A DNA stretch of 64,000 nt, taken from positions 205,329-269,328 of the forward strand of contig NZ_FOKR01000003.1 in NCBI RefSeq assembly GCF_900112195.1, given 5' to 3'. The DNA is from Butyrivibrio sp. YAB3001. GTDB lineage: Bacteria; Bacillota; Clostridia; Lachnospirales; Lachnospiraceae. Every line of letters starts with the position of its first letter. Positions within the stretch are counted from its first letter, which is position 1. Positions 50,271 to 59,617 of the stretch are shown one piece after another. Below the pieces are notes generated by a model. That model was not told the DNA's origin. It ran no database searches and saw nothing but the letters and a program-made list of their open reading frames with translations. A program made the position numbers and the translations under genes.

Positions 50271-50350
<80 letters not shown>

Positions 50351-50362
50351 CTAGATTTTATC

Positions 50363-50397
50363 AAGGTTTATCAAGTTATTTGATAAACCTTTTTTTA
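50363..50397 (+). terminator. Terminator after tRNA-Leu supplied by the element
   Basis: AAGGTTTATCAA pairs with TTTGATAAACCTT, then T7. It lies inside the element, so insertion gave the tRNA a new terminator; the old one appears to be at 57055. Confidence 0.8.
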
Positions 50398-50501
50398 TAT
50401 TCTAATCCAGATATGACGCATATTTGAATAACATTTAATCTTTTTATCTTGTTCTGTCTTATTACATATATTTTTAAAAAATCACCCCACAAAAGACAAC
50501 T

Positions 50502-50533
50502 ATGTGATACAAAATGTGATATTTTGTGTGATA
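50502..50533. other. Putative integrase arm-type sites, tRNA side
   Basis: ATGTGATACAAAATGTGATA followed by another TGTGATA. A 20-bp copy with 19 identical bases lies near the other end at 56970. Confidence 0.55.
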
Positions 50534-50584
50534 GTCAAATATAGATAAAATCTAGCTTTGCACCTTTTTTAACTCCTGCTGCCA

Positions 50585-51697
50585 TTATGATGTTATTATT
50601 TTTACATTGTTCATTGCTGCTATCTTATTCTCTTTCATAACCCTAGTGTATAGATTCAAGGTTATAGATATATCTTTATGTCCTAACAATTCAGATAAAA
50701 TTTTAAAATCCTGCGGTCTTTGCTCTATAAATCTTGTAGCAAATGTTACTCTAAACGCATGGCAAGTGAACTTTTTAATATCTATTGCCTTGCAGATTCT
50801 TTTTATTTCTCTATTTGCCGTATATTCTCGCAATAATTCCCCTTCGCCACTTTTAAAAAGCGTATCTGTCCAATCTAAGCCAAAAAGCATATTATTTAAC
50901 TCTTTTTGTCTTTTGATTATTTGTTTTAAATCTGGTGTTATCGGTATATCTCTATTTCCAGAATATGTTTTTGTATCATCACCAATAATATAATTTCCGT
51001 AAATATCCCTTGTGATCGTTCGCCTTATGTGAATAAAATCATTGTCTATATCTGTTAAATATAACGCCCCTATTTCACCAATACGCATTCCCGTTAATAT
51101 CATCAGTTTAAAAACATTTAAATATATACTATTTCTTTCATCTGCTGCCTTAAAAAATTGTAATGATTCTTTTTCGCTCAATGCTCTATGTTTATTTTCT
51201 GCGATTGGTGCAGATTCTCTTTTTAATTTCTTCAATGCCTTGCAAGGATTTTTAGAAATAGTTTCATCTAGCAAAGCACATTCAAAAACATGATTTAAAT
51301 GTGCAAAGCAGATATTTAAGTTTTCCGGTGTTTTTTCATCTTCTATCAAAGATTGTCTTGCGGTTTCTATATCTCTTCTAGTTATATCTTTTATCTTTAA
51401 TTCTCCAAATAATTTACTATTTTCCATTTCAACATTTGATATTATCTTAAATTGTGACTTTTGCGCTCTTATGGTTGCCGGTCTTTGCTCCTTTAATCGT
51501 AATTCTGTGAAATAATCATAATATTGATTTAATGTTGGATTTTCGTGTTTTTGTGTTCCTTCTTCAAGTTCTTTTCGCTTTTGTGTTACCTTCTCAACTA
51601 GTTCTTTCTGGTCTTTTCCATAAACATAATATCTTTTCCCTTCATACATGAATGTTTTTCTATAATATCCATTAATTGTTTTCTTTTGCCTTGCCAT
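50585..51697 (-). CDS. int: Tyrosine recombinase (integrase)
   Basis: A 370-residue phage/ICE-type integrase. An AP2-like or SAM-like N-terminal arm domain is followed by the catalytic domain: TGMRIGEIGALYL (first arginine), HAFRVTFATRFIEQ (HxxR), LLGHKDISITLNLYTRV (second histidine and the nucleophilic tyrosine). All catalytic residues are present. The start at 51697 follows AGGTGG. It overlaps the end of the 64-codon gene upstream by 26 bp. Its place beside the tRNA at attL fits integration into tRNA-Leu. Confidence 0.95.
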   Translation of the reverse strand: MARQKKTINGYYRKTFMYEGKRYYVYGKDQKELVEKVTQKRKELEEGTQKHENPTLNQYYDYFTELRLKEQRPATIRAQKSQFKIISNVEMENSKLFGELKIKDITRRDIETARQSLIEDEKTPENLNICFAHLNHVFECALLDETISKNPCKALKKLKRESAPIAENKHRALSEKESLQFFKAADERNSIYLNVFKLMILTGMRIGEIGALYLTDIDNDFIHIRRTITRDIYGNYIIGDDTKTYSGNRDIPITPDLKQIIKRQKELNNMLFGLDWTDTLFKSGEGELLREYTANREIKRICKAIDIKKFTCHAFRVTFATRFIEQRPQDFKILSELLGHKDISITLNLYTRVMKENKIAAMNNVKIITS

Positions 51698-51866
51698 TTG
51701 TTTTATTCCACCTATCAAATTCTTTTTTAAATTGCCTATATAAATTTAAATCTTCTCTATCTGGTCTTTGTTCAATGAATCTTGTTATTATCTCATTTCT
51801 TCCTACATCATTTACCCCCAGATACAACAAAAAACCATTAAACATATTTATTAACTTTTTTTCCAT
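51672..51866 (-). CDS. Small protein upstream of integrase, unknown
   Basis: A 64-residue protein, largely helical and charged (DREDLNLYRQFKKEFDRWNKTNGKAKENN), with a good AGGGGG site. Its end overlaps the integrase start, suggesting translational coupling. No family recognised; a role in recombination directionality is possible but unsupported. Confidence 0.65.
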   Translation of the reverse strand: MEKKLINMFNGFLLYLGVNDVGRNEIITRFIEQRPDREDLNLYRQFKKEFDRWNKTNGKAKENN

Positions 51867-51891
51867 TTTTGCCCCCTTGCAGCCTTAAATA

Positions 51892-52425
51892 TTAAATCAT
51901 TCCTGCTAATTTCAAAGCATATTTAAAACCCTTTTTAAACGAATCTTTTTCAGATTCTAACGTATATTCCATGACTAGCGTGTATAATTCCGATTGTTTT
52001 TCGCTGCCTATTTTCGATTCAATATTATTTAAAACCTTATCAAGTTTATTCATTTTTTCTTTTATTTCTTCCGGTATGTCTATTTCTATCTGGTTTTCAC
52101 CTTCGCAACCCGTTGAAATATAGTAATACTCATTTGCAATATTGTTGATAAAATCCCCTTTATAGCTTTCAGGATCTTTAATATCTATTTTTTGGCTTTG
52201 CGTTTGCTCTTTATCGCAATTATTTATTGTTTTTTGTACTGTTTGCACTTCGTTTGTTAATTGTTCCATCTGGTCAACCAATAGCCATAAAGCATCATTC
52301 ATTTTATAAGGTGTTTCACTTGAAAGATTTGCACACCTTATTGTTTCTGATAGTCCTAGAATTTTTTCGCACTCTATAACAATTTTTTCCATAGCAGCAC
52401 AAAGCACATTATTTTGATTATTCAT
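51892..52425 (-). CDS. DUF6809-like hypothetical protein
   Basis: A 177-residue helical protein. It ends MEYTLESEKDSFKKGFKYALKLAGMI, resembling the conserved tail (Ser/Ala-Phe-xx-Gly-Phe-xx-Ala) of small accessory proteins grouped as DUF6809. The middle is a coiled-coil segment (LVDQMEQLTNEVQTVQKTINNCDKEQ). GGGGGG precedes the start. It is the first gene of a rightmost-to-left unit leading to the 64-residue protein and integrase. Function unknown. Confidence 0.7.
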   Translation of the reverse strand: MNNQNNVLCAAMEKIVIECEKILGLSETIRCANLSSETPYKMNDALWLLVDQMEQLTNEVQTVQKTINNCDKEQTQSQKIDIKDPESYKGDFINNIANEYYYISTGCEGENQIEIDIPEEIKEKMNKLDKVLNNIESKIGSEKQSELYTLVMEYTLESEKDSFKKGFKYALKLAGMI

Positions 52426-52765
52426 GGAATAGCCCCCCTTTTTGCAAATATCCCGCTACAACTTTTATTGTTATAGCGGGATATAAAATCATTATTTTGC
52501 AATTACCATTTTTTCATGTTTATTTGTCTATTTTATATTTGACCGCCTAGATAAATTTTATAAGCAAATACTTTTTATTATATTTTTTGATTCCCCTTAA
52601 TTTAGATTGTCTTTGATACTAATCACATTTTATTTGTGATTGTTTTTTTGTCCAGATAACAAAAAACGAATCGTTTCTAATCCCATTTTATTTGTTTACT
52701 TGGTTATAACTTGCCGTTTTTTTGTTTTTATCACCTTCTTTTTTGTTTCTGTCTTATTTTGTCAT

Positions 52766-52833
52766 GTTGTGTACACAACGATATAGTAACATCTTTTTGT
52801 TGTGTACGCAACATATTTTGTTTTGTACGTAAC
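52766..52833. promoter_or_regulatory. Three operator-like palindromes before the RHH gene
   Basis: GTTGTGTACACAAC (52766, perfect palindrome), GTTGTGTACGCAAC (52799) and GTTTTGTACGTAAC (52820) lie 47-114 bp upstream of the ribbon-helix-helix gene and in the divergent gap from 52425. Centre spacings are 33 and 21 bp. They are good candidates for autoregulation by the RHH protein. The rest of the 450-bp gap (52426-52879) is AT-rich with no other feature seen. Confidence 0.65.
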
Positions 52834-52879
52834 TTTGTTACAATTTCTTTAATGCACTAACATTTTTGGAGTTTTTCTA

Positions 52880-53059
52880 ATGCCAAATAGAAATGAATAT
52901 CTTAATAAATACAAAAAAGAGAATTATAAACGTATTCCGCTAGACGTTACAACGGATAAATACGAAAAGATAAAAAATCATGCAGCAAATCGTTCTGAAT
53001 CCGTCAACGGATTTATTAAACGTGCCATTGATGAAACCATGAAAAGAGATAGCCAATAA
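52880..53059 (+). CDS. Ribbon-helix-helix (Arc-like) DNA-binding protein
   Basis: A 59-residue protein. KRIPLDVTTDKYEKIKNHAANRSESVNGFIKRAIDETM fits the Arc/MetJ fold: a beta strand, helix A and helix B with the sequence SVNGFIKRAI. It is the only plus-strand gene of the element. Three palindromic operators lie upstream. The last 36 bases of the gene, including the stop, are tandemly repeated right after it, so the C-terminus has probably been altered by a 37-bp duplication. Confidence 0.75.
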   Translation: MPNRNEYLNKYKKENYKRIPLDVTTDKYEKIKNHAANRSESVNGFIKRAIDETMKRDSQ

Positions 53060-53097
53060 AGCCATTGATGAAACTATGGAAAGAGATGATCAATAAT
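53024..53097 (+). repeat. 37-bp tandem duplication of the RHH gene end
   Basis: GCCATTGATGAAAC at 53024 and at 53061 start two copies with a few differences (CATGAAAAGAGATAGCCAATAA and TATGGAAAGAGATGATCAATAA in the continuing parts). The period of 37 is not a multiple of three, so the second copy is out of frame and non-coding. Confidence 0.8.
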
Positions 53098-53160
53098 GCT
53101 AATATAGTATTGTTTAAATTATCATCTTTTGTCTTGCATAATGCCTTGCAGCCATAAAGA

Positions 53161-53204
53161 AATAAAAGCATTAGTAACTAATTCTTGTTGCTAGTGCTTT
53201 TATT
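53161..53204. terminator. Bidirectional terminator
   Basis: AATAAAAGCATTAG pairs with CTAGTGCTTTTATT. It separates the convergent RHH gene and the 53233 gene. Confidence 0.7.
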
Positions 53205-53232
53205 ATGCCTTTATTTTGTGTTCTTTATACCC

Positions 53233-53472
53233 TTATTTTTCGTTTTCTATCTCTTTTAGTGCCTTTATACGTAAATTTTCTAAAATCGAATCTAGCCCCC
53301 TTAAATCGTTACCACGTACTATTTTACAAAAAGACCATTTTTCATGTTTTTTTAATTCTCTAGCATTTGTTTTTATTTCTTCGCCTTTTTCATCTGCTGC
53401 AATAATTATCATTGGCTCTTTGCATAACTTTGTTTCTAGCAATTCAATGCGTTTAATTATGCTTTGATTCAT
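53233..53472 (-). CDS. Small coiled-coil protein, unknown
   Basis: A 79-residue protein. It begins MNQSIIKRIELLETKL and continues with PMIIIAADEKGEE, a build seen in many small phage and island proteins (N-terminal coil, then a strand-turn unit). AGGA in the upstream GGCAGCAGGATAT serves as the likely ribosome binding site. It is 22 bp after the 53495 gene. No function recognised. Confidence 0.6.
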   Translation of the reverse strand: MNQSIIKRIELLETKLCKEPMIIIAADEKGEEIKTNARELKKHEKWSFCKIVRGNDLRGLDSILENLRIKALKEIENEK

Positions 53473-53494
53473 GGTTTGATATCCTGCTGCCGTT

Positions 53495-54055
53495 TTAATC
53501 TTCTTTTAGTGCTGAATTATCACCGAATACAACATTGTACATTGGCGTATAATACTTATCTTCATCTGCTAACCAATCCGCAATTTTGCTAATTGCCCCG
53601 TTTGCACTGTCATATATACTTGTATCATCTGGAAGATACATTTTATCAATCTTTAAATTGTGCTCGTTTGCGTATCTTATTGCTAATTGCGTCATTGTCC
53701 GGTTGTTTGAATTTCTTTCCAGGATTCCAGCAATATCATTTTCTTTAAGTATTAGTCCATTTTGTAATAATTTAGCATCTTCCGTTAGTTCTTCCGGTTT
53801 TATTACTTCATTCGCTTTTACTTCTTTCTTTTTCAGCTCTGAAAGCCTTTTAGATTCTTTTCTAACATTCTCTTTGATTGATTCTATTTCTTTACTCAAT
53901 GAATCCATTTTAGGCAAAATATTCTGCCTTAAATACTCTATGTTGTATTGTTTGGATTCCCTTGCAGCCTTTAACTTGTTATACTCTTCTGCTTTTCTCT
54001 TACACTCATTTCTTGCATTATCAACTAATGTTTTTAAATCTTCGTAATAACTCAT
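53495..54055 (-). CDS. Coiled-coil hypothetical protein
   Basis: A 186-residue protein. A long coiled coil at about residues 5-90 (ARNECKRKAEEYNKLKAARESKQ..., LSKEIESIKENVRKESKRLSELKKKE) is followed by an alpha/beta domain with NRTMTQLAIRYANEHNLKIDKMYLPDDTSIYDSANGAI. The start at 54055 follows AAGGG; the frame stays open through the iteron array above, which is not coding. It is the first gene behind iteron array A. No function recognised. Confidence 0.7.
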   Translation of the reverse strand: MSYYEDLKTLVDNARNECKRKAEEYNKLKAARESKQYNIEYLRQNILPKMDSLSKEIESIKENVRKESKRLSELKKKEVKANEVIKPEELTEDAKLLQNGLILKENDIAGILERNSNNRTMTQLAIRYANEHNLKIDKMYLPDDTSIYDSANGAISKIADWLADEDKYYTPMYNVVFGDNSALKED

Positions 54056-54086
54056 TGTTTCCCTTCTTTCTTTTTCATCAATTATA

Positions 54087-54300
54087 AAAATAGTTCTCAC
54101 TTTTAAAAGTGCTAAAAATAAAGGTATGGTATGGTATACATATATATATGTGTGGTCTATAGACCACACTACGCATTGTATTTTTTTTAAAGAAGTGTGG
54201 TCTATAAACTACACTAGAAAGTATTTTTTGCCTTTACGTGTAGTCTATAAACCACACTTGTTACTGTGGTCTATAAACCACACTTACTAAAAATAAATGT
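54087..54300. repeat. Iteron array A (large direct repeat, copy A)
   Basis: About 214 bp, nearly identical to 55616-55829. It holds four 20-bp palindromic units: GTGTGGTCTATAGACCACAC (54150-54169, perfect), then units at 54195-54214, 54238-54257 and 54264-54283 with one or two changes. Also included are CACTTTTAAAAGTG and a TATGGTATGGTATAC segment next to the start of the 54055 gene, a likely shared promoter. Possible roles are replication iterons or operators. Confidence 0.9.
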
Positions 54301-54302
54301 TT

Positions 54303-54395
54303 TATCGCTTTTTAACCCATTCATCAACGTATTAATATATATTTTCCATTCTATTATTATTTCCGCTTTTTATAAAAAAGCCCTTTTGTGATACT
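54303..54395 (-). pseudogene. Decayed 3' end of a second Rep-like gene
   Basis: In one minus-strand frame the sequence reads GFFIKSGNNNRMENIY, stop, YVDEWVKKR. It aligns with the end of the intact winged-helix gene at 55835 (GFIKKVESGKNNRKKNIYQYVDKWVEK), with the Gln codon now TAA. The fragment lies in the same position relative to iteron array A as the intact gene does to array B, so both were copied together. Confidence 0.75.
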
Positions 54396-54492
54396 AATAG
54401 TGATACTATCCGTAATAAAGCCCTATTTTATGCGATAACTAGTATAATCTTACATTATCCGCATTAAATCTATTTTATGTAATATATTGTTT

Positions 54493-54660
54493 TTAGAGTG
54501 GATAATATATATTTTTTACTGCGTGTGTTATTTCGATTGCGTGATTTAGTTGTTCTTTGTTAAAACCCCAGCCGTCTAAATTTCCGTTTTTTATTTCTTC
54601 TCTGATATACTCTAATACTTCTAGTGTTTTGTAAAAATCTTTTATACTTGGTTTATTCAT
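54493..54660 (-). CDS. Small hypothetical protein
   Basis: A 55-residue protein (KPSIKDFYKTLEVLEYIREEIKNGNLDGWGFNKEQLNHAIEI), helical, starting 2 bp after the stop of the Cys-rich gene. Tight packing supports it being translated. No family recognised. Confidence 0.55.
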   Translation of the reverse strand: MNKPSIKDFYKTLEVLEYIREEIKNGNLDGWGFNKEQLNHAIEITHAVKNIYYPL

Positions 54661-54662
54661 GT

Positions 54663-55067
54663 TTAGTTTTTTGTTTTCCTCTCGTATTCTCTGCATTGCT
54701 TTATAGCTTTAATAATTCCACATTGTCCAGATTCCCAAAGAGCACAAACAGAAGAACAATTATTATGTGATAATGGGCATTTGCCGCTTATATCCTGCTG
54801 CCGTTCTTTTAAACTCACTATCATACATTTGTCACCATTCCACCATGCACAATTATTATCACATTGTTTTATAAACGCATTATTCCCTTTTAACGGGCAT
54901 ATTCCTTTTGTTTTTACTTCTGGTCTAATAATACTATTTGTTTCTTTGCTAATTGGTATATCCTTGTTTCCATAGGTTGTTAATATATCCGGTGCATATT
55001 CTTTTATATTTCCTACGAATCTATAAAAGCGTTTGTTTTGTTCGTCATACTCTGGATATTCTTGCAT
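54663..55067 (-). CDS. Cysteine-rich, probably zinc-binding protein
   Basis: A 134-residue protein. Two related cysteine units lie in the C-terminal two thirds: CPLKGN...CDNNCAWWNGDKCMI (about residues 58-83) and CPLSHNNCSSVCALWESGQCGI (about 97-118). Each has four cysteines spaced as in small zinc domains common in phage and island accessory proteins. GGGGGG precedes the start. It sits in an operon of four small genes behind array B. Function unknown. Confidence 0.7.
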   Translation of the reverse strand: MQEYPEYDEQNKRFYRFVGNIKEYAPDILTTYGNKDIPISKETNSIIRPEVKTKGICPLKGNNAFIKQCDNNCAWWNGDKCMIVSLKERQQDISGKCPLSHNNCSSVCALWESGQCGIIKAIKQCREYERKTKN

Positions 55068-55077
55068 ATACCCCCCT

Positions 55078-55239
55078 TTATTCGTTCATATTTGCTTTAT
55101 TTTGCTTTATCTCTTTTAGTTCTTTGCTTATATTCTCTAAATCATTTATTCCAGAATAAATGATCATCAATGCTTGCTTATACTTTTTTACAAACTCGCA
55201 AAAATACACTTCTATATCCTGCTGCCGTTCTTCATTCAT
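55078..55239 (-). CDS. Small hypothetical protein
   Basis: A 53-residue protein beginning MNEERQQDIEVYFCEFVKKYKQ and ending in a Lys/Asn-rich helix. Its start overlaps the end of the preceding gene by 8 bp, and the next gene starts 10 bp after its end, which supports it. No family recognised. Confidence 0.55.
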   Translation of the reverse strand: MNEERQQDIEVYFCEFVKKYKQALMIIYSGINDLENISKELKEIKQNKANMNE

Positions 55240-55594
55240 TTTCATTTTCTATTTGCTCCAATCGTTCTATTCGTTCTATCAAATCAACTGTTAAAGTAAA
55301 CTCTTTCCAATGGCTCATAATACTATTACACGCATAAACCCTAACTTGCGGATTTATTGATGTATCATCACGTATCTTTGCCAATACATCAACGCATTTT
55401 GTTAATTCAGATTGTAATTTATAAACCGATTCTTTTACTATCTGCTGCCTTCGTTCCTGCGCAAGTCCTTTTAATTGTTCATCTTTTTTATATTTAACTA
55501 TGGTTGATTTACTCAACCCCGTAGCATTCATTAAATCAACTGTTTTTGTGAAGGTAGCAAATGCAGCTATAACTATTTCGCTATATTCTTTCAT
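55232..55594 (-). CDS. Helix-turn-helix protein of phage/island type
   Basis: A 120-residue protein. NATGLSKSTIVKYKKDEQL (about residues 22-40) looks like a helix-turn-helix of the kind found in small terminase-like or phBC6A51-type proteins. A helical middle follows (YKLQSELTKCVDVLAKIRDDTSINPQVRVYACNSIM), then a coil ending in ENENE. It is the first gene behind iteron array B and heads a four-gene operon. Whether it is a terminase small-subunit relative or a regulator is not decided. Confidence 0.65.
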   Translation of the reverse strand: MKEYSEIVIAAFATFTKTVDLMNATGLSKSTIVKYKKDEQLKGLAQERRQQIVKESVYKLQSELTKCVDVLAKIRDDTSINPQVRVYACNSIMSHWKEFTLTVDLIERIERLEQIENENE

Positions 55595-55615
55595 AACAAT
55601 TTATCCATCATTAAT

Positions 55616-55829
55616 AAAATAGTTCTCACTTTTAAAAGTGCTAAAAATAAAGGTATGGTATGGTATACATATATATATGTGTGGTCTATAGACCACACAA
55701 CGCATTGTATTTTTTTTAAAAGAAGTGTGGTCTATAAACTACACTAGAAAGTATTTTTTGCCTTTACGTGTAGTCTATAAACCACACTTGTTACTGTGGT
55801 CTATAAACTACACTTACTAAAAATAAATG
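55616..55829. repeat. Iteron array B (large direct repeat, copy B)
   Basis: Matches array A at nearly every base; the differences seen are a substitution near 55699, one extra A in the A-run before unit 2 and one base in unit 4. Units lie at 55679-55698 (perfect palindrome), 55725-55744, 55768-55787 and 55794-55813. It ends next to the stop of the intact Rep-like gene and leads into the start of the 55594 gene. Confidence 0.9.
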
Positions 55830-55834
55830 CATTG

Positions 55835-56275
55835 TCACTTTTCCACCCATTTATCAACGTATTGATATATGTTTTTCTTTCTATTATTTTTTCCGCTTTC
55901 CACCTTTTTTATAAATCCTTTTTTCTCTAACTCCTGCATATCTTTATAAAAATTACTATGGCTTTTTTCAGTGTATAAGCCATAATCAAGAATTTTCCCC
56001 CAATTCATATAAAAAAAACTATCATCTTGATATAATTCGGTGTTATCGTCTTTGGGTTTTCTTTTTCCGTAATATTGCGCTTTGCAATATATATACAACA
56101 TCTGCTGCCTTGGTTTTAAACTTTTAAAAGAATCCGAACACAACATTGATTCGCTAATTCTTGTCATTGTTTCGGTTTGGTTTCTTTTCTCTTTATCTGT
56201 AAATTTATCGCCAACATAACTACATATACTTTCAAATGATTTGAGTTGTTGTTTTTTCTTTTTTTGCCTTGCCAT
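55835..56275 (-). CDS. Winged-helix Rep-like protein
   Basis: A 146-residue basic protein. It starts MARQKKKKQQ and contains SLKPRQQMLYIYCKAQYYGKR, then a winged helix (WGKILDYGLYTEKSHSNFYKDMQELEKKGFIKKVES). This is the pattern of plasmid and island replication or partition proteins with a single winged helix. Iteron array B begins 6 bp after its stop, as origins often adjoin their initiator genes. It lacks a clear catalytic domain, so if it starts replication it would need host enzymes. It could instead be the array-binding regulator. Confidence 0.65.
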   Translation of the reverse strand: MARQKKKKQQLKSFESICSYVGDKFTDKEKRNQTETMTRISESMLCSDSFKSLKPRQQMLYIYCKAQYYGKRKPKDDNTELYQDDSFFYMNWGKILDYGLYTEKSHSNFYKDMQELEKKGFIKKVESGKNNRKKNIYQYVDKWVEK

Positions 56276-56303
56276 TATCCAAATTGCAGCCCCCCTTTAT
56301 TTT

Positions 56304-56504
56304 TTATAAATCTTCTGGATTGCTATTTATGAAAAGTTTTATTTTTTCAACATTCCACAAAACACGCTTTCCGATCTGCATTCTTGCATTCGCTTTAGTT
56401 CCAATTTTTACTGCAGTTTCTCTTCCAGAACTAAGCATATCTTTTAACCCGTTTGTATCTACTAATAATTTCATTGAATCGTCATTGTATATTGTTTTTC
56501 TCAT
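56304..56504 (-). CDS. xis: Excisionase-like DNA-binding protein
   Basis: A 66-residue protein. LVDTNGLKDMLSSGRETAVKIGTKANARMQIGKRVLWNVEKIKLFI matches the MerR-like helix-turn-helix of excisionases (GR-TAVKIG...GKRVLWN). It overlaps the upstream Cro-like gene by 4 bp (ATGA). Excisionases act with the integrase for removal; this one lies at the opposite end of the element from int. Confidence 0.8.
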   Translation of the reverse strand: MRKTIYNDDSMKLLVDTNGLKDMLSSGRETAVKIGTKANARMQIGKRVLWNVEKIKLFINSNPEDL

Positions 56505-56689
56505 TTTTTTGATTCCTTTTCTTCTTCAATTTCCTGAATAAATGCGAATAGTTTCATTTTTTCCTTTTCTGGAAGTTCTTCTCTTAACTTTGCACAAAAA
56601 TAATTAGATGAATAACCGCATTTTTTAGCTAATTCCCATTGTTTAACACCACTTTCCTTTAATGCCATTTTTAAAACTTCATTTGCCAT
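56501..56689 (-). CDS. Cro-like small helix-turn-helix protein
   Basis: A 62-residue protein. LKMALKESGVKQWELAKKCGYSSNYFCAKLREELPEKEKMKLFAFIQEI is a minimal Xre/Cro-type DNA-binding domain. It is the first gene of the xis/Rep-like operon and is probably a regulator of it. A 340-bp AT-rich region without genes separates it from attR. Confidence 0.75.
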   Translation of the reverse strand: MANEVLKMALKESGVKQWELAKKCGYSSNYFCAKLREELPEKEKMKLFAFIQEIEEEKESKK

Positions 56690-56969
56690 TTTTTTATATC
56701 CTTTTTTGCTATTATTATGTTATTACTATTACGATATATATATCATTAAAATTAATCATTGAAAAGTTTATCATGCCGTATTTAAGCCATTTTGTGGCGT
56801 GATAACTTGATTAAAATTAATGTGCATGTCGTAACTTTTTAACATTATGTGTATTTATTTACGCATTTTGTGAATTATTTATATACAAAGCATTATTAAA
56901 TTAACCAATTTATTTTTTTATGGATTTTTTAATTTAGATAAATTCAGAAAAAAAGATTTTATTATTACT

Positions 56970-56989
56970 ATGTGATATAAAATGTGATA
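56970..56989. other. Putative integrase arm-type sites, attR side
   Basis: ATGTGATATAAAATGTGATA matches 50502-50521 in 19 of 20 bases. It lies 41 bp inside attR. The remaining sequence from 56690 to 57030 is AT-rich with no other feature seen. Confidence 0.55.
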
Positions 56990-57030
56990 CTTTCATTAAA
57001 AGTATAGATATTAACTAATGTGTTGGTTTT

Positions 57031-57051
57031 AGTCCTGTTATCCGCACTAGA
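57031..57051 (+). other. attR core
   Basis: 21 bp identical to attL at 50335; a partial tRNA-Leu 3' end without the rest of the tRNA. Confidence 0.9.
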
Positions 57052-58716: not shown

Positions 58717-58892
58717 TTATTAAACTCCCGGCACTTATCGTAATAACAAAAATATTTTAAACAATCATCATCTCAATTATTATACTGCTATAATCACTTC
58801 AGAAAGCCTATCGCTGTAGTAGTAAATAGTTTTCTTAAAAGATTATACAACAAAAAGAACGCTTAACCATCAGAGTTAAGCGTTCTTCTCAA

Positions 58893-58965
58893 TGAGACAC
58901 GGGGGATTCGAACCCCCGACAACTTGATTAAAAGTCAAGTGCTCTACCACCTGAGCTAGTATCCC
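58893..58965 (-). tRNA. tRNA-Lys(UUU)
   Basis: Anticodon arm ACTTGAC-TTTTAA-TCAAGT gives UUU. Acceptor GGGATAC pairs with GTGTCTC, discriminator A. Confidence 0.95.
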
Positions 58966-59013
58966 ATATTTGATTTTCCATGTGCAACGGTGTATTGAAA
59001 TCCGTCGCACTAA

Positions 59014-59085
59014 CTGGGCTAGCCGGATTCGAACCGTCGTATGCAGCAGTCAAAGTGCTGTGCCTTACCGCTTGGCGATAGCCCA
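59014..59085 (-). tRNA. tRNA-Gln(UUG)
   Basis: Anticodon arm CAGCA-CTTTGAC-TGCTG gives UUG. Acceptor TGGGCTA pairs with TAGCCCA, discriminator G, as usual for tRNA-Gln. Confidence 0.93.
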
Positions 59086-59113
59086 TTATCAGCAAAAACT
59101 ACTGTATTGGAGG

Positions 59114-59187
59114 GTGGCTAGAGGGACTCGAACCCTCGATCTCCAGAACCACAATCTGGCGCGTTAACCAACTACGCTATAGCCACC
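59114..59187 (-). tRNA. tRNA-His(GUG)
   Basis: Anticodon arm CCAGA-TTGTGGT-TCTGG gives GUG. The extra 5' G (position -1) is encoded and opposes C73. Confidence 0.95.
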
Positions 59188-59243
59188 ATGTAATTACTTC
59201 AGAATTACGATTCATGAATAACTGTTAAATTAGATAAAAATAG

Positions 59244-59317
<74 letters not shown>

Positions 59318-59373
59318 ACGCTTAAACTGAGCAAAACAATGATGTAAAAGTAATTAAGTATTTTCGCCCAAAG

Positions 59374-59444
59374 AGCGGGTGATGGGAATCGAACCCACGT
59401 ATCCAGCTTGGAAGGCTGGTGTTCTACCATTGAACTACACCCGC
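59374..59444 (-). tRNA. tRNA-Gly(UCC)
   Basis: Anticodon arm CCAGC-CTTCCAA-GCTGG gives UCC. Acceptor GCGGGTG pairs with CACCCGC, discriminator U. Confidence 0.95.
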
Positions 59445-59542
59445 AAGTGTTACTCGTTTCAACACACATTTGTGTATTTTACACGACTCAGTTCCAAAAG
59501 TCAAGAACTTTTTTGAGTTTTTTTTAATTCTTTCAAACTCAA

Positions 59543-59617
59543 TCGGGGTGACAGGATTCGAACCTGCGACCCCCTGCTCCCAAAGCAGGTGCTCTAGCCA
59601 AACTGAGCCACACCCCG
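59543..59617 (-). tRNA. tRNA-Pro(UGG)
   Basis: Anticodon arm CCTGC-TTTGGGA-GCAGG gives UGG. Acceptor CGGGGTG pairs with CACCCCG, discriminator A. It is the first of the six-tRNA unit. Confidence 0.95.

Follow-up and report, generated by a model that had tools for sequence, protein, structure and literature searches.

A 6.7-kb element at a tRNA-Leu gene of Butyrivibrio sp. YAB3001 as a candidate helper-dependent phage satellite with a RepA_N-like replicon

Within a 64,000-nucleotide stretch of the genome of Butyrivibrio sp. YAB3001 (contig NZ_FOKR01000003.1, positions 205,329 to 269,328; referred to as the window), positions 50335-57051 hold a mobile insertion of 6.7 kb at a tRNA-Leu gene. It is near certain that this is an integrated mobile element, and the best-supported reading, with a probability of roughly 0.58, is a minimalist helper-dependent phage satellite with a RepA_N-like replicon. 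Central to that reading are a 146-amino acid (aa) winged-helix (wH) protein, judged from its predicted structure to be a probable RepA_N-like replication initiator, and a protein resembling small terminases (TerS). An earlier sequence-only reading of the same DNA had proposed a satellite or a helper-dependent self-replicating island, possibly of a new class. The first part of that proposal is retained; the novelty is not, because satellites of similar size, the phage-inducible chromosomal minimalist islands (PICMI; PMC10803314), and a RepA_N replicon in a satellite, the phage-inducible chromosomal island-like element (PLE; PMC7145576), are already known. Genomes and loci or contigs used for comparison are labeled G and L, respectively.

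The two ends of the element carry the same 21-bp sequence, AGTCCTGTTATCCGCACTAGA, and the tRNA gene is left intact (Table 1). Identical ends, an intact tRNA, an intact integrase, and excisionase-like and Cro-like proteins had all been described from the sequence alone, and each was recovered here, the last two with homologues in L038, part of the closest relative. The element has a G+C content of 29.4%, compared to 39.2% for the remainder of the window, and is present once in its own genome. All thirteen genes considered are on the minus strand, except that for a ribbon-helix-helix (RHH) regulator. The clean case of an uninterrupted site is L041, from another species of the genus (G223), where the tRNA continues directly into sequence like the right flank, the alignment crossing the junction at 85.5% over 138 nt, and where the tRNA tail with the attachment sequence occurs in a single copy within 18 kb. 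Alignments across the junction were also obtained for G212 (93.1%), G206 (89.8%), G237 (87.3%), G203 (75.1%), and, in two pieces, G226, but these are weaker evidence because only 0.6-0.8 kb of sequence was taken in and because G228, which has its own element at the same tRNA, aligns through the junction as well; a joined-flank alignment by itself is therefore weakened as proof of an empty site. For G261 (L045) the similarity is limited to the tRNA and attachment sequence (85 nt, 100%), again with one tail copy within 18 kb. Six tRNA genes are clustered on the minus strand at 58892-59617 of the window; the tRNA genes Lys-Gln-His-Arg-Gly-Pro share their strand with tRNA-Leu in G261, G223, and G228, which makes the tRNA-Leu of the window look inverted relative to its neighbors.

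Relatives of the element are rare and widely spread. In the same genus, TerS-like and wH relatives were each found in 4 of 79 genomes, both counts including the genome of origin; in the family each was found in 3 of 200 genomes, and at the level of the order the count was 2 of 295. Profile searches of 397 genomes of the family matched TerS in seven, one of which (G068) has two stops, and wH in eight; two of the latter, G430 and G036, were dropped because they read as chromosomal MarR-type genes, and they served as negative controls for the arrays described below. Searches gave nothing for the wH and TerS proteins as single sequences against viral contigs, for the wH protein against genome contigs, phages, and plasmids, for the TerS protein against phages, or for the integrase against viral contigs. 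Four loci of 5.3-7.5 kb have a tRNA-end repeat on both sides (G228, 5.3 kb; G214, 6.9 kb; G256, 6.4 kb; G116, 7.5 kb), as does a fifth of 10.3 kb in G211 (L039), and the G228 element occupies the same tRNA-Leu gene. A search of other genomes had been proposed in the sequence-only reading, with a larger known integrative and conjugative element (ICE) or prophage at this site, or no occurrence anywhere else, as the contrary outcomes; neither was found. The small size and the lack of structural genes would fit a decayed larger prophage or ICE that persists through drift alone. However, the genes considered are all open, similar-sized elements bounded by tRNA ends exist, and one relative (L122, below) is circular, so this explanation is largely refuted and very improbable, and deletion-remnant status is rejected.

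The closest relative, in G275 (L038 and L048), has an integrase apparently split by a contig break and shares with the element cro, xis, TerS (66% identity), the 55-, 134-, 186-, and 177-aa genes, the RHH regulator, and int. It does not have the wH gene or its array; the same slot holds a DnaD-like gene (phrog_2514, 8.2e-26) and a DnaC-like gene (phrog_50, 5.2e-39). In G228 and G215, an AAA_25 ATPase (PF13481, 9.3e-16 and 5.1e-27) lies between xis and the TerS-like gene, the L046 and L047 loci have an AAA_25 ATPase in the slot with homologous xis, TerS-like, and int genes beside it, and in G061 an AAA_25 ATPase (1.6e-24) precedes the TerS-like gene. Since DnaD/DnaC-like or AAA_25 genes occupy this position in relatives, the slot of the wH gene is a replication slot.

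The fold of the wH protein points in the same direction. For the AlphaFold model (mean predicted local distance difference test score, pLDDT, 69.8), ranks 1-4 of VIA-align are 4pql, 4pt7, 5kbj, and 4pta, with Z of 9.2, 9.1, 8.5, and 8.0 over 91-96 residues and root-mean-square deviations (rmsd) of 3.0-3.2, and ranks 1-4 of Foldseek are chains of 5kbj and 4pql (E 0.01-0.06). The structure 4pql is taken here to be a RepA_N plasmid initiator. Homologues of the wH protein are 20-52% identical to it (13 of 15 at 39-52%), and 3 of 16 match the RepA_N family PF06970 weakly, at best with 0.0035. The other three structures, 4PTA, 4PT7, and 5kbj, are Staphylococcus aureus plasmid RepA proteins of the RepA_N family (PMC7145576). 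A PDB sequence search with the initiator and TerS proteins found no firm relative, 4pt7 being matched at E 0.43. The wH homologue has a gene for a PC4-type single-stranded DNA-binding protein next to it in three loci, with a match above the Pfam cut-off in L042 and L061 and below it in L063; at L061 8881-9411, an HNH nuclease fused to a PC4 single-stranded DNA-binding domain is encoded directly behind the iterons.

Four near-palindromic 20-mers start about 20 nt behind the stop codon of the wH gene; beyond them, in array A, are CATATATATATG and then ATACCATACCATACC. Arrays were scored by 16-mer repeats over the first 260 nt behind each gene. The array of the window scores 4, and none of the 309 control windows taken from the same sequence reaches this value. 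The same score was found for L042, L040, L009, L011, L061, and L063, while L039 and L065 score 3, L050 scores 2, and L062 and both MarR controls score 1. Among the homologues added later, L137 scores 5, L136, L142, and L128 score 4, L121 and L138 score 3, L141 scores 2, and L122 scores 1. Control windows reached the observed score in 3 of 128 cases for L039, 3 of 144 for L009, 1 of 80 for L063, 2 of 116 for L121, 8 of 120 for L065, 37 of 113 for L050, and 33 of 117 for L141. With a relaxed search, 14 of 19 homologues have a recognizable array behind them and L138 has three sites; neither of the two MarR control genes is followed by an array, and L122 has four sites closely resembling those of the window. 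The 19 homologues are not independent, as L136, L137, L138, and L142 are related to each other and L011 to L128. Out of a possible 80, the site-picker scores of the 14 arrays are 63-77 and those of the two negative controls 51 and 50; the cut is a judgement, with L138 (62), L065 (61.5), and L050 (60.5) just below it.

Array spacings in the forward form cluster near 23-35, 42-45, and 43-48, with deviations in L009 (32/39/45) and L061 (33/53/44). The order is mirrored in L039, L011, L128, and L121, and in L039 and L121 the AT-rich tract and TATGGTA box are on the other side too. Four-site spacing was rejected as proof by itself, since the negative controls gave 25/45/47 and 45/43/42, with low scores. 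When eight arrays are aligned, the last site is followed by an invariant TATA, and most arrays have a TACCAT box beside the AT-rich tract. The iteron sequences differ among most loci, although those of L122 resemble those of the window, and such locus-specific iterons recall, by analogy, the cognate RepA/origin pairs of PLE (PMC8263062). The exact 17-mer TATATAAAGTTTACCAT (the AT/TACCAT box) occurs in 48 stretches of viral contigs and was rejected as a specific marker on its own because the initiator gene is just upstream in only seven, two of which are the additional contigs L155 and L157. The two iteron arrays of the sequence-only reading were confirmed as copies of one 294-nt block (55606-55899 and 54076-54369) that spans the array and the last codons of the wH gene; the wH fragment in block B matches residues 117-146, with a stop. 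Block B is possibly a further origin, or else an operator close to a promoter.

These features could also be expected of a transcription factor, with the palindromes serving as operators for downstream genes and not as an origin. The sites are near-palindromic, MarR-like folds also fit the wH model and there are weak TrmB/PadR matches in Pfam, and array B precedes the 186-aa gene at the expected place of a promoter. However, the arrays come after the gene rather than before it and border on an AT-rich tract and mostly a TACCAT box, relatives have DnaD/DnaC-like or AAA_25 modules in the slot of the gene, and the best fold matches are RepA_N initiators. Regulation as the sole role is improbable, and a replicon is considered likely.

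The gene beside the candidate origin probably encodes a TerS. The model of the 120-aa protein has a pLDDT of 84.8, and Foldseek ranks 1-8 are chains of 2ao9 from phBC6A51 (E 0.099-0.57), which is listed among small terminases (PMC11331095). VIA gives Z 6.8 with 2ao9 over 85 residues (rmsd 6.6), and 4.8, 4.7, and 4.3 with the small terminases 4xvn, 6w7t, and 7joq. Several homologues match TerS families better, with best values of 0.0031 for L046, 2.0e-4 for L047, and 3.6e-6 for L003/L010, and the L062 homologue matches phrog_2538 (terminase small subunit) with 2.1e-12. A second type of TerS accompanies homologues of the initiator and integrase in L050 (PF16677, GP3_package, 1.5e-7), L061 (phrog_606, 1.9e-9), and L122 (phrog_606, 6.2e-8). 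At L010 125-5985 (G022), the TerS-like gene and a homologue of the 186-aa gene share a strand with a tail tape-measure gene, into which they lead at the end of the contig. The 946-aa open reading frame (ORF) there matches tail tape-measure proteins in 753 phage records and has 32% identity to that of Blautia phage Montmirail; between the TerS-like and tail genes of L010, no large terminase (TerL) or capsid ORF was recognized by reading. This context ties the TerS-like gene family to phage morphogenesis. In L038, L062, and L010, a homologue of the 186-aa protein is encoded close to a TerS-like gene (at a distance of about 1.3 kb in L010), and L040 has a homologue with no TerS identified there; proteins of L046 and L047 join this family only when seeded into it. 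The 186-aa protein is proposed as a candidate packaging or capsid factor.

A relative in circular form comes from L122 (IMGVR_UViG_3300010270_000263), a contig of 5,442 bp with an exact 123-bp terminal repeat that closes to a 5.3-kb circle. It matches the integrase (6.3e-90), Xis (2.6e-9), and initiator (2.7e-58) of the window, and has in addition a gene for a 58-aa repressor (phrog_876, 1e-10), a divergent 316-aa ORF, and a 157-aa TerS ORF that continues through the closure. Behind int is AGTCCCATCTTCCGCATTAAGA, which includes 13 nt of the 14-nt tRNA-Leu tail of L043 and L044, and ARAGORN found no tRNA gene in L122, which has a single tRNA-Leu 3' end. From its sequence L122 appears to be the excised circle of a relative, with the layout of an attP site, and a terminally redundant or concatemeric molecule would look alike. 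The other small wH contigs, L138 and L139, do not have a terminal repeat. On larger contigs, L121 7965-8411 encodes an initiator with a mirror-image iteron array in a 72-kb phage contig that also carries RecT, exonuclease, methyltransferase, RusA, and O-like initiator genes; the array there may serve as a second origin or as a decoy. In L136 7015-8600 (from the contig of L145) and in L155, the initiator and iterons, joined in L136 by an xis-like gene, are behind the N-terminus of a cut-short large terminase (phrog_2, 7.1e-12 in L136) that has its own TerS upstream; this unit is possibly an island inserted in a phage terL gene. Downstream of the replicon, L142 7220-9199 and L136 14935-16396 contain P-loop NTPase genes, with TPR-like repeats in that of L142, and L136 has a gene that reads as TIR-like and has only a weak PHROG match of unknown function. 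These downstream genes are possible defense cargo.

If the element is a satellite of this kind, the RHH and Cro-like regulators would keep the island silent in tRNA-Leu until a helper phage arrives, when Int and the Xis-like protein would excise it as a circle. The wH protein would then bind the four iterons that directly follow its gene, melt the adjacent AT-rich/TACCAT stretch, and recruit the replisome of the host or helper. The TerS-like protein would mark island DNA for the large terminase of the helper, and the DNA would be taken up into capsids of the helper, which may be altered or filled with concatemers, before re-integrating in a new cell.

Several results weigh against this reading. 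With regard to the initiator, PF06970 does not match the wH protein of the window even at E 5, the yeast ORC row of VIA-align ties at Z 8.0 and further unrelated rows reach about 7-8, the Foldseek E is 0.01 at best for a model with a pLDDT of 69.8, and the relaxed search found no clear array behind the L062, L050, L065, and L141 homologues. The presence of wH homologues on larger phage contigs (L121, L136) means that the module is not satellite-specific. With regard to packaging, the TerS fold match at Z 6.8 is below the level of trust for helical proteins and TetR-type rows are similar, the match to phrog_2538 is weak (E 0.035), and the L038 protein, its closest homologue, matches no TerS family at E 0.1. 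In G022, a 116-aa gene next to the L010 homologue matches the TerS family phrog_309 more strongly (3.5e-10), so that at this locus the TerS role may be divided between the two genes or common to both; together with the L038 result, this slightly lowered confidence in the TerS assignment. No homologue of the window integrase was found in 20 kb of G022, and that locus, instead of a satellite of the same sort, may be a phage or an embedded island. As for a helper, the host genome was searched for large terminases with two models: PF04466 has no match, and the three phrog_2 matches were rejected as a resident helper TerL because the ORFs read as PhoH-, RecD-, and helicase-like. No resident helper prophage is evident in the host genome from these searches.

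These points leave room for a small integrative plasmid-like element, in which the initiator and iterons serve only for maintenance during excision, the helix-turn-helix (HTH) protein is a regulator and not a TerS, and spread is by transformation or by hitching on conjugative elements. TerS similarity is weak in the window protein and absent in L038, the genome has no helper signature, and RepA_N proteins are mostly plasmid initiators (PMC7145576). Two distinct TerS types nevertheless recur beside this initiator or a related integrase, and relaxase and conjugation families are not matched by the element (Pfam for 10 of 13 proteins, PHROGs for all 13), which makes a plasmid-like element unlikely. 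The statement in the sequence-only reading that no transfer, packaging, or defense genes can be recognized is accordingly only partly sustained: it holds for transfer as far as those two collections reach and for defense in the 10 of 13 proteins scanned with PADLOC (a single weak match, E 0.0014, to the winged helix of the initiator), but not for packaging, given the TerS-like gene. PHROGs matched no capsid, tail, or lysis families among the 13 proteins apart from the weak TerS match.

The satellite reading invites comparison with known systems. Phage-inducible chromosomal islands (PICI), including the Staphylococcus aureus pathogenicity islands (SaPI), likewise have an integrase, their own replication module, a specific attachment site, no structural or lytic genes, and in some cases terS, but are typically 12-15 kb (PMC6092414). 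Of the integrase, replication module, and master regulator that PICI have in conserved order, the element has int, a candidate replicon, Cro, and RHH; no primase-helicase was found, no Stl-like large repressor was seen (there is no large divergent repressor ORF in the window element), and no interference genes were recognized. PLE of Vibrio cholerae has a RepA_N-type initiator, semi-palindromic iterons, and modular initiator/origin pairs (PMC7145576, PMC8263062); for the element, fold and array speak for an initiator of this type and the absent PF06970 match against it. In contrast to the element, PLE uses a large serine recombinase, its origin is in a noncoding region apart from repA and not directly behind the initiator gene, and its RepA has a C-terminal domain where the 146-aa protein has little beyond a DNA-binding domain; the TerS-like gene is a further difference from PLE. 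PICMI are also very small, with few genes, excision, and replication, but have alpA, a primase, and no terS and are found beside fis in Vibrionaceae (PMC10803314), whereas the element is at tRNA-Leu, has a TerS-like gene, and has no primase match among its proteins in Pfam or PHROGs. RepA_N plasmid initiators (4pt7, 4pta, 4pql, 5kbj) bind iterons and are the best fold match of the wH protein; the latter is not recognized by PF06970, and the element is chromosomal with int and attachment sites. ICEs and integrative mobilizable elements have relaxase or conjugation genes, none of which was matched here. As read here, the element would operate much as these satellites do. Because it fails at least one tested defining feature of each of PICI, PLE, and PICMI, it was not filed under any of these names.

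A distinct class can be suggested tentatively, at somewhat less than even odds: minimalist phage satellites of 5-7.5 kb from gut and rumen Lachnospirales with a RepA_N-like replicon, its initiator reduced to the DNA-binding domain and its polar four-iteron origin placed immediately behind the initiator gene, the replicon being exchanged among satellites, larger phages (L121), and islands behind a cut-short terL (L136), and perhaps loaded with a Chi-like octamer of the host. If so, initiator/iteron specificity would be a currency of the arms race between satellite and helper. The satellite reading would extend satellites to this bacterial group; no such element appears in the titles and abstract openings among the matches listed for satellites in Lachnospiraceae or Butyrivibrio. 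It has been suggested that chromosomal RepA_N genes beside recombinases may belong to cryptic phage satellites, and the mechanism by which RepA_N proteins start replication is described as unknown (PMC7145576). That proposal would become directly testable with units of 5-7 kb that combine an integrase with a RepA_N-like initiator and a TerS-like gene, and for the start of RepA_N replication, the 146-aa protein and its candidate origin of about 200 bp would be a very small test system.

Table 1. Features of the element and its target site, in window coordinates.
Feature	Position	Strand	Basis or remark
tRNA-Leu (anticodon TAG)	50271-50351	+	ARAGORN; integration target, left intact
Left attachment repeat, 21 bp	50335-50355		Exact match to 57031-57051; overlaps tRNA 3' end
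Tyrosine integrase, 377 aa	50585-51718	-	PF00589 6.1e-21; phrog_1 3.3e-60
64-aa protein	51672-51866	-	Overlaps int start; ORF only; no PHROG match
177-aa protein upstream of int	51892-52425	-	Homologue in L038, 2.7e-7
Three RHH-type operators (~52766, 52799, 52820)	52764-52836		By pattern
RHH regulator, 59 aa	52880-53059	+	RHH_7 1.2e-4 (below Pfam cut-off); phrog_13890 6.2e-15
79-aa protein	53233-53472	-	Positional counterpart only, in L038
186-aa helical/coiled-coil protein	53495-54055	-	Homologues in L038, L062, L010, L040
Second origin-block copy (B)	54076-54369	-	Repeats 55606-55899, 93.9%, 295 alignment columns
Array B iterons (54150, 54195, 54238, 54265)	54150-54285	-	Repeat search
67-aa protein	54493-54696	-	ORF only; no PHROG match
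134-aa Cys-rich protein	54663-55067	-	L038 homologue, 1.1e-21
55-aa protein	55078-55245	-	L038 homologue, 4.8e-5
Probable TerS, HTH and two long helices	55232-55594	-	phrog_2538 0.035; folds 2ao9, 4xvn, 6w7t, 7joq
Candidate replication origin, array A	55606-55834	-	Iterons 55679, 55725, 55768, 55795, then AT-rich tract and ATACCATACCATACC
146-aa wH protein, probable RepA_N-like replication initiator	55835-56275	-	Fold matches; slot exchange in L038
Excisionase-like protein, 66 aa	56304-56504	-	Homologues in L038, L046, L047, L050, L063, L122
Cro-like HTH protein, 62 aa	56501-56689	-	phrog_2328 0.0035; L038 1.1e-20
Right attachment repeat, 21 bp	57031-57051		Exact match to left repeat

Homologues of the RHH regulator are present in L038, L040, L047, and L050, and the three RHH-type operators of the sequence-only reading were found again by pattern. 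The excisionase-like protein matches nothing in PHROGs at 0.001. Pairwise comparison of the 79-aa protein with the 84-aa ORF at the same place in L038 gave no significant match, so conservation of this gene with L038 is unsupported.

Short repeats were also surveyed. The octamer GGCAGCAG has the highest ratio to base-composition expectation in the element, with seven copies on the minus strand and none on the plus strand, at about nine times the density of the host. On the remainder of the 395-kb host contig (C35 of G000) it is fully strand-polar, 45 to 0, and is the most abundant fully polar octamer among 4,289 with at least 18 copies on that strand. Wherever the skew of other sampled contigs is clear, it is on the G-rich strand (14 of 14 cases); a further copy is on a contig that shows no skew. 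Its 45 copies on the host contig are no over-representation against the 39 expected under a maximal-order Markov model (rank 2999 of 18,955), and AGCAGCAG is likewise skewed, 39 to 4, which argues against a special role. As a family or packaging motif it was rejected, since L038, L040, and L046 have none; the first element of L047 has one, L050 two, and L009 and L042 many on both strands. A Chi-like role, or that of another polar motif of the host, is a guess, and no title on Chi or recombination was among the matches listed in a literature search with the bare octamer. Two further repeats are GGCTGCAA, four times on the minus strand only (51884, 53153, 53969, 56291), and GGCTGCAAGG, three times in the element and nowhere else on the host contig.

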